DNA of 64,000 nucleotides, from contig NC_135360.1 of assembly GCF_051622035.1 (NCBI RefSeq), positions 13,754,001-13,818,000 of the forward strand, in the 5' to 3' direction. Made by a program: the position numbers and the translations under genes. This stretch comes from Arctopsyche grandis. Its lineage: Eukaryota; Arthropoda; Insecta; Trichoptera; Hydropsychidae. Below are positions 22,730 through 46,048 of the stretch, in pieces. Every line of letters starts with the position of its first letter. The stretch's first letter is position 1. The notes under the pieces were generated by a model that was not told the origin of the DNA, did no database searches, and saw nothing but the letters and a program-made list of their open reading frames with translations.

Positions 22730-22737
22730 AATTATTT

Positions 22738-23130
22738 GGTAAACGGACTACTAGTCATATGTGAACCAGTCACAGGACAACTGGTCGCTCTAGATCGGTC
22801 ACACGTGATCACCCGTCACACTAAAACTGGTCACACCCTAAAATCGGTCACGAGAAAACTGTCACGAGTTTTCTCGTGACAGATTTTAGGGTGTGACCAG
22901 TTTTAGTGTGACGGGTGATCACGTGTGACCGATCTAGAGCGACCGGTTGTCCTGTGACCGGTTCACATTTTACTAGTAATCACTAGTCACCGGACCCAGA
23001 AGGGGCCGCGTATTGTTCAAAGGTTGTAAATGCATTGTTAAAGGTTTGCCGAAACTTTTTTATAAAGGATTTACAACAATGGAACATTAGATACCACTGT
23101 CACTATCCTACCTCTAGTAATCACTGAACC
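22738..23130. mobile_element. hAT-type foldback element with phrase-array arms, 8-bp duplication
   Basis: It starts GGTAAACGGACTACTAGTCA and ends in ...AATCACTGAACC. It is flanked by a perfect 8-bp direct repeat AATTATTT (22730-22737 and 23131-23138). From 22738 to about 22985 it is a long hairpin. Each arm is a string of related phrases: gaaccagtcac, actggtcgc, atcggtcacac, gtcacactaaaac, tggtcacaccctaaaa, tcggtcacgagaaaac. The 145 bp from 22985 to 23130 are an unpaired tail. A second copy with its own duplication is at 45631. It is non-coding. Confidence 0.9.
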
Positions 23131-23140
23131 AATTATTTAT

Positions 23141-23350
23141 AGTTCGGTGATTATTCCCCACAATGCGATCTCGCAGACGTCACTAAAATCTCGATCACGG
23201 AACATCTGACACCCAAAAATTCCATCCATCGAGATTTACCCACGCAAACTATCCTACTAACGAGAACTCTAGTGCCAGATATTCCGTATTCGCAATTTTC
23301 GTAGCAACGATTGTCGTGTGTATGATTTTATGCGAGCAACACGTGACAAG
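23141..23350. mobile_element. MITE of the 6109 / 38125 family
   Basis: It begins GTTCGGTGATTA, the same end as the element at 38125 and the inverse of the right end of the 45631 element. It carries the ordered phrases 'gtcactaaaatctcgatcacggaaca', 'actaacgagaact' and 'gtgccagatattcc'. It starts directly after the duplication of the previous element, so two related elements lie back to back. The right boundary is approximate. Confidence 0.6.
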
Positions 23351-23684: not shown

Positions 23685-35661
<11,977 letters not shown>

Positions 35662-45044: not shown

Positions 45045-46048
45045 AGTACTTATTCGTTATATGAGCACAAACGAGCATTCAGTATTCATACACACTTACA
45101 CTAGCCCAAACAAATATATGGCAGTTACAAAGCTATATATGCATGAATTTGGTAGGCTTGTCAAGAGTCTGAGTAAATAATTTTCTGTAATACGTAAATT
45201 TGATTTATTTTCTGTTCAACATTAAATAATTAAAAATATTAAGTCAAAATTTTTTTTTCATCAAAAAAGTTATTGATCATCTCGAATTTTCCATATCCAG
45301 TTCCCATATTGCAACCTGTGGTTGCTATTTAGGAACTGGTTATTGTAAAATTCACAAATATCGGGTGTAGATATCGGTAGTGTGGACGTAGCCATTGAGC
45401 TTTAGTTTTTTCACTGCAATGAACCCCAAAAATTGCAATAGCTATGAAAAACAACCCTGGTTTTCCTAAATAACATAATATGACTGTTTTTGTCTAAGGG
45501 AGTATCCGTTGAATTTAGTATATTGTTCAATGTAACGTCAATCACTGATTGTCTACTGTATTTTAACTGAAATTGTTTGTGACACCTAGATTAATTCATT
45601 GCAGCAATTTATTTAACTACCGTGTTTTTGGGTAAACGGACTACTAGTCAAATGTGAACCGGTCACAGGACAACCGGTCGCTCTAGATCGGTCACACGTG
45701 ATCACCCGTCTCACTAAAACTGGTCACGAGAAAACTGGTCACACTCTAAAACTGGTCACGAGAAAACTAGTCACACCCTAAAATCGGTCACGAGAAAACC
45801 TGATTGATCGATTTTAGGGTGTGACCGGTTTTCTCGTGACCAGTTTTAGAGTGTGACCAGTTTTAGAGTGTGACCAGTTTTAGTGTGACGGGTGATCACG
45901 TGTGACCGATCTAGAGCGACCGGTTGTTCTGTGACCGGTTCACATTTGACTAGTAATCACCGAACCTGTTTTTGTTTGTATTTGTGTGAGTGTACTAGAA
46001 TAAGTTTGTACTAGATGCTCGGTTGCGCCTATATAGCCAATAAGTCCC
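45045..46048. mobile_element. MITE family B, copy 3, with a nested hAT-type hairpin
   Basis: Left end AGTACTTATTCGTTATATGA, right end ...GATGCTCGGTTGCGCCTATA then tagccaataagtccc. It carries the markers 'tattgttcaatgtaacgtca' and 'tgacacctaga' shared with copy 2. The element at 45631-45966 interrupts it. It occupies most of the intergenic space between the two divergent ZAD genes. Confidence 0.75.
45631..45966. mobile_element. hAT-type hairpin element with phrase-array arms, 8-bp duplication
   Basis: 336 bp, flanked by a perfect TGTTTTTG (45623-45630 and 45967-45974). The two arms of about 160 bp pair almost completely around a short tip near 45800-45812 (TGATTGATCGA). Each arm is an array of phrases built on GGTCAC: gaaccggtcacagga, caaccggtcgctcta, gatcggtcacacgtg, actggtcacgagaaa, actggtcacactcta and so on. 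It is the second copy of the family at 22738, and the phrase number differs between copies. Confidence 0.92.

Follow-up and report, generated by a model that had tools for sequence, protein, structure and literature searches.

Does the 393-bp unit at positions 22738-23130 of a 64,000-nucleotide stretch of the Arctopsyche grandis genome (C6:13754001-13818000 of the 476-Mb assembly, hereafter the window) represent one transposon, or two that have come to lie one within the other? The original prediction treated the whole unit, a hairpin followed by an unpaired tail, as a single hAT-type element that had moved in one piece. Our analysis, in which all genome-wide searches and counts were made on that assembly, leads to a different answer, to which we give a probability of about 0.72: the unit consists of two nested cut-and-paste miniature inverted-repeat transposable elements (MITEs), a hairpin host and a different MITE inserted later at its tip. 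This figure applies to the whole explanation taken together, that is, a Merlin-like foldback host with a nested hAT-like MITE.

The layout of the unit already points to nesting (coordinates are those of the window, on its forward strand unless stated otherwise). A perfect 8-bp target-site duplication (TSD), AATTATTT, flanks the unit, as first described, at 22730-22737 and 23131-23138, and the hairpin has inverted arms (22746-22860 and 22867-22981) of 115 nt each, 95% complementary and 6 nt apart. The main part of the host starts with GGTAAACGGACTACTAG and runs from 22738 to 22983, while its final 6 bp, TGAACC, lie at 23125-23130, severed from the rest by 133 bp (22984-23116) that begin TAGTCACCGGACCC and end ATCCTACCTCTA; this insert is the 'unpaired tail'. 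On either side of it stands a copy of GTAATCAC (22976-22983 and 23117-23124), the tail's own TSD, and the somewhat longer direct repeat CTAGTAATCACT at 22973-22984 and 23114-23125 brackets it as well. Joining the two split parts gives a host of 252 bp, which after removal of the tail ends in CTAGTAATCACTGAACC; tail-free copies elsewhere end in CTAGTAATCACCGAACC or, less often, in CTAGTAATCACTGAACC.

The 133 bp between the two copies of GTAATCAC are a separate dispersed repeat with its own TSDs, and its left end occurs 1,384 times in the genome (here and below, counts of ends and junctions allow at most one mismatch, with 0 matches for the control). A search with the tail alone, in which the best 40 of 1,230 candidates were scored, gave 49 matches; 20 places were read with their flanks, tail-type ends could be placed in 19 of these standalone loci, and the element was 133 bp long in 16 of the 19. 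The duplication script, which sought 8 bp only, found duplications of the form GTNATNAC in all of them, exact in 15 and with one mismatch in four. The target sites start with GT in 17 of 19 cases, with AT at positions 4-5 and a final C (position 8) in every case; the hAT target motif nTnnnnAn (GTNNNNAC) is found in them too, with T at position 2 in 19/19 and A at position 7 in 18/19. Terminal inverted repeats (TIRs) of hAT elements start with the consensus YARNG, which fits the TAGAGG end of the tail, and the TAGTCA end in its first three bases only. The 8-bp duplications and the target motif suggest that it is the tail of the unit that is hAT-like. Like hobo and its hAT relatives, the tail makes 8-bp duplications at a GTN..NAC target motif (GTNCGNAC for hobo, in an excerpt of PMC3276498; GTNATNAC here), but at 133 bp and with no transposase gene it is unlike these elements. 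Among the hAT-domain matches (best 150 of 2,335 candidates scored) six loci were read: three ended otherwise and had a TSD (TAGGCTTG ends once, CAGTGGCGTAAC ends twice), one had CAGTGGCGTAAC ends in a simple repeat and two gave no ends, and tail-type ends, searched for at five of the six, were not found. At least seven of the 19 standalone tails (L073-L092) have, by eye, a flank resembling another tail-type end (TAAAG, TAGAG, TAGTC, CTCTA), as if new copies reused the duplicated target of older ones and formed chains.

The hairpin, for its part, is abundant without a tail. Host left ends number 1,465 in the genome and tail-free host right ends 1,461. Of 99 exact left ends on C1, 47 could be matched to an exact right end without a tail, and 43 of these 47 pairs span 194-464 bp; the four longer pairs, inspected by eye, held nested transposons only or were two separate neighbouring copies. 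We tried to read TSDs at 61 places (both copies in the window and 58 loci, of which one has two copies); 33 were readable, and the duplication measured 8 bp at 20 of them, 9 bp at 12 and 7 bp at one. The second window copy, at 45631-45966, is tail-free, 336 bp long and flanked by TGTTTTTG at 45623-45630 and 45967-45974. The host has GGT...ACC ends, and the two ends are unequal, GGTAAACGGACTACTAG versus GGTTCGGTGATTACTAG (GGTAA and GGTTC). It is short, non-coding and present in high copy, with long inverted repeats and target duplications, as MITEs and foldback elements are. The earlier view of a mobile, apparently non-autonomous element is thus borne out for the hairpin, which would have been moved by transposase supplied in trans.

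These counts also bear on whether the 393 bp could be one non-autonomous hAT element, tail included. An 8-bp duplication does flank the whole unit, and at several other loci, too, an outer duplication encloses a host with its tail. On the other hand, the tail has its own TSDs and its own large family, and the tail-free host right ends stand against just 76 tail-host junctions of the two types that we counted (other tail subfamilies lie outside this count). The outer duplications, moreover, are 9 bp long in 12 of 33 cases, compared with 8 bp in 99.83% of 1,198 insertions of hobo, a hAT element (PMC3276498, in excerpt). We therefore consider a single element highly improbable, and for the window copy we reject a composite because of the tail's own duplication and the separate nearest relatives of its two parts: the host is 97% like the tail-free copies L018 and L032, and the tail is 95.5% like the standalone copies L084 and L085. 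On these data, the claim that the whole unit moved as one is not supported. The nesting and both target duplications are observed directly: a 133-bp hAT-like MITE with the target motif GTNATNAC inserted into GTAATCAC in the right end of an existing host.

Several tail subfamilies have inserted repeatedly at this same host site, in both orientations. Of the two junction types, 38 cases have the CTACCTCTA end adjoining the host tip (the arrangement of the 393-bp unit), and 38 have the TCCGGTGACTA end there, which is the other orientation of the TAGTCACCGG subfamily; because CTACCTCTA closes more than one subfamily, the two counts do not cover exactly the same ones. Of the TCCGGTGACTA junctions, 19 lie in C2:30.8-34.4 Mb and one on C162, and they look like copies of one locus. 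(The stretch C2:30.7-34.4 Mb, with C162, contains many equal-score hAT genes with a 628-aa frame besides the 19 copies of one host-tail junction, and looks like a long repeated array.) The TAAAGAGCGG subfamily occupies the host site in L010 and, reversed, in L022, the TAGAGCCCGG subfamily does so in L011, and L013 and L016 have two tails in chain. When the same duplication script was applied to 14 tailed host loci, nine gave a duplication, four gave none and one could not be matched; at seven of the nine, one tail alone occupies the host site (L010, L011, L012, L014, L015, L017 and L022), five of them with exact duplications, and a duplication was also read at the chained L016. When 42 hosts were compared, leaving aside the 72-bp remnant L110, eight of ten tailed hosts proved closest to a tail-free copy, and repeated independent insertion is therefore the best explanation. 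We saw no extra targeting of the host tip: among 100 listed exact tail ends on C1, two are located at a junction with the host. Some 1.3 would be expected (P 0.37), judging by an approximate tally of GTNATNAC sites (the window has 16, four of them in the 393-bp unit); this suggests that the target motif alone suffices for tail hits on the host.

The GGTCAC/GGTCGC phrases reported in the arms of the host are real: the left arm (22758-22866) contains seven GTCRC motifs, whereas 1,000 dinucleotide shuffles gave 0.9 on average and five at most. The left-arm array (22768-22860; unit borders set by eye, order parsed) reads A (AGTCACAGGACAACT, 22768-22782), B (GGTCGCTCTAGATC, 22783-22796), C (GGTCACACGTGATCACCC, 22797-22814), D (GTCACACTAAAACT, 22815-22828), F (GGTCACACCCTAAAATC, 22829-22845) and E (GGTCACGAGAAAACT, 22846-22860), and the right-arm array (22867-22960, reverse strand) is its mirror, A-B-C-D-F-E from the end inward. 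That the order is mirrored is a consequence of the inverted-repeat structure itself. The units are 14-18 bp long with a common (G)GTCRC, and are arranged as a fixed outer block A-B-C-D followed by a variable inner run of E and F. Parsing covered 46 copies from the 61 places, including four interrupted ones and L110, which lacks readable arms: A-B-C-D opens 41 of the 46 left arms and the same number of the 46 right arms, with variable E/F units behind it. The commonest form is ABCDFE / ABCDF, 239 bp long, and the second window copy has nine units parsed in its left arm and eight in its right. The arrays are therefore ordered and conserved across the parsed copies, and this unit parse, with the shuffle test, also shows the internal tandem repeats within inverted repeats that characterise foldback elements. 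In number, however, the E/F units vary, right arms having 2 to 12 units in parsed copies below 420 bp (L110 excluded), and a single copy often has one unit more in one arm than in the other.

Such variation is what slippage predicts, and the phrases might have no function at all, being by-products of slippage in a palindrome that are retained only because the element spreads. We regard this as a possibility to be taken seriously, if not the one that we favour. The order of the outer block is nearly invariant, and A, B and C have a common GGTCRC core with differing spacers, which suggests a retained binding motif. The likeliest role of the phrases is that of putative transposase-binding sites, the repeated core forming what would be an array of them, by analogy with Galileo, for which further binding sites of the transposase THAP domain are located in tandem repeats (PMC3688188, in excerpt). 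Slippage may still account for the inner run, since slippage in a palindrome would give such a run; the E/F units would have been gained and lost in this way, or by unequal exchange, near the hairpin centre.

Arms of this kind have counterparts in known foldback systems. The host resembles sea-urchin TU elements, whose foldback arms consist of ~15-bp repeats and which make 8-bp duplications. With Galileo, a foldback-like element of the P superfamily in Drosophila, it has in common, as far as the excerpted account goes, long inverted repeats with internal tandem repeats, but it differs in being a short MITE that has GGT ends and makes 8- or 9-bp duplications, and its binding sites are putative. 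Tetris of Drosophila virilis, in the excerpted PMC4079207, is likewise a foldback element with tandem repeats in its arms, 8-9-bp duplications in three complete copies and no autonomous copy found; unlike the host, it has longer repeat units (TIR-220) and three complete copies only, and it seeds satellite DNA. Both parts of the unit belong to known kinds. As far as can be told, they are new families of those kinds, although the literature searching was not aimed at these sequences and we make no claim that they are unpublished.

To which superfamily does the host belong? The hAT membership originally proposed for the hairpin is rejected: 12 of 33 duplications are 9 bp long, giving a mixture of 8 and 9 bp, and the GGTAA/GGTTC ends do not fit YARNG. 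GGT...ACC ends together with 8- or 9-bp duplications fit Merlin better than hAT, and Merlin is our best inference. Elements of this superfamily have 5'-GG ends and TSDs of 8 or 9 bp, and one published family has strongly unequal ends (PMC8101967, in excerpt); the host is like them in all three respects, with a 5'-GG TIR start and duplications of these lengths in 20 plus 12 of 33 cases, and unlike them in that no intact transposase gene was found between host ends. Merlin-type genes do occur in the genome, with 51 matches to PF12762 (DDE_Tnp_IS1595). One of them lies in a 1.25-kb element (L068:3650-4895) with a 320-aa open frame in which the DDE_Tnp_IS1595 domain was confirmed, near-perfect GGT ends (GGTRCCGGTTTAGTGTGCATTCTA) and a 9-bp TSD. 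Because no autonomous partner or intact gene was found between host-type ends, we infer the superfamily from ends and duplications.

Several observations weigh against a Merlin-like host with independently inserted tails. The host copies were picked by similarity to the 393-bp query, with 40 of 3,242 candidates scored, so the sample leans to tailed and close copies. Two of the ten tailed hosts, L011 and L009, gave no clear nearest-host answer: the nearest host to L011 is L009, whose tail differs, and for L009 it is L013 (94.7%), which has the same kind of tail, with the tail-free L032 at 94.5%. L012, L014 and L015 have one common 102-bp tail variant, identical in L012 and L014; the hosts closest to them lack a tail, and similarity within the trio is 93-95%. 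A mobile host-tail composite is thinkable for these three and for L009/L013. No intact element with host ends and a transposase was found among the long C1 copies and the PF12762, hAT and Mutator-like element (MULE) loci examined. Of the 20 PF12762 loci extracted (of 51 matches), 19 had no host-type end pair around the match, and at L061 only a gene fragment lies between right ends of host type, which are imperfect (2 and 3 mismatches in 18) and have no target duplication. Finally, foldback elements assigned to Mutator give duplications of 8-10 bp (PMC4079207, in excerpt), and Mutator-like genes occur in this genome (60 PF10551 matches).

The last two points lead to the main rival for the host, namely that it is a Mutator-like foldback MITE and not a Merlin one. 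Transposase genes that might serve such a MITE are present, as just noted, but no host-type end pair surrounds the gene at the seven MULE loci examined of the 60. Mutator duplications are typically 9 bp long, and here the 8-bp duplications exceed the 9-bp ones, 20 versus 12. We think a Mutator-like host unlikely and retain Merlin.

The loci visited in the partner search gave further observations. The wider flanks of six PF12762 loci contained no host ends closing one element around the gene. L047, L049 and L053 encode Merlin-like proteins, around which no ends with a target duplication were found; L047 and L049 (C6:7929-7934 kb) are neighbouring frames of 400-424 aa that have an additional N-terminal part besides a Merlin-type domain, and are possibly domesticated genes. 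A foldback MITE family of ~600-650 bp (L050-L066) carries inverted fragments of a Merlin-type transposase gene; it ends in GGTAAAAGTCGG, shows 8-bp TSDs in three of 16 loci where they were readable (one with a mismatch), and has only GGTAAA in common with the host. In L061 a unit of this type sits within a larger palindrome ending GGTTCGKTGATTA / GGTTCGGTGATAA, for which no duplication was found, and as a link to the host this palindrome is only suggestive. A 287-aa Merlin-like frame in L071 adjoins copies of the host and of a sister family, F2; it was considered as the host's partner and rejected, the adjacent ends belonging to two separate short elements whose flanks do not match.

F2 has an unequal end pair like that of the host and a different interior. 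Its copy at L124:494-1216 has the ends GGTTCGGTGATTATT and GGTAAACGGATTGTT, and the one at L071:6488-6700 has a worn ..TTCGGTGATTATT and GGTAAACGAATTATT. Given these like unequal ends, we read host and F2 as two families moved by one transposase. The phrases were compared with the F2 subterminal part in 16 combinations: the pairing of the second window copy with L071:6488 outscored all 500 shuffles, one further comparison was reached by 1 of 500 shuffles, one by 8 of 500 and 13 by 44 or more, so that the similarity is a weak hint. L071:3061-3195 is a 135-bp chimera of an F2-type left end and a host-type right arm, with flanks that do not match. In the window, a degraded F2 copy with the same kind of end (AGTTCGGTGATTATTCC) lies at 23141-23325 (right boundary approximate, set by eye) and begins two bases past the host's right target duplication, so that three MITEs stand side by side or nested. 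Farther on, at 30500-31770, frames resembling reverse transcriptase were seen by eye and look like a retrotransposon lacking long terminal repeats.

In a fuller and more tentative picture, the host might be a foldback MITE of the Merlin type, with arms made of putative transposase-binding sites in an ordered, amplified array whose outer block is fixed and whose inner run can expand. Its one unequal end would offer several families of hAT MITE a permanent target, and since the target is duplicated at every insertion, the tip could go on receiving insertions in chains; extra targeting of the tip is not required for this. Even the nesting by itself carries a warning, in that a unit that is well flanked may contain, as its unpaired 'tail', a second transposon. 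It also offers a simple rule for how such nesting arises: the terminal repeat of one family happens to contain the target motif of another. Finally, the 1,465 left ends, with their differing numbers of units, form a natural copy series that could be used to test whether the arm repeats are amplified transposase-binding sites.
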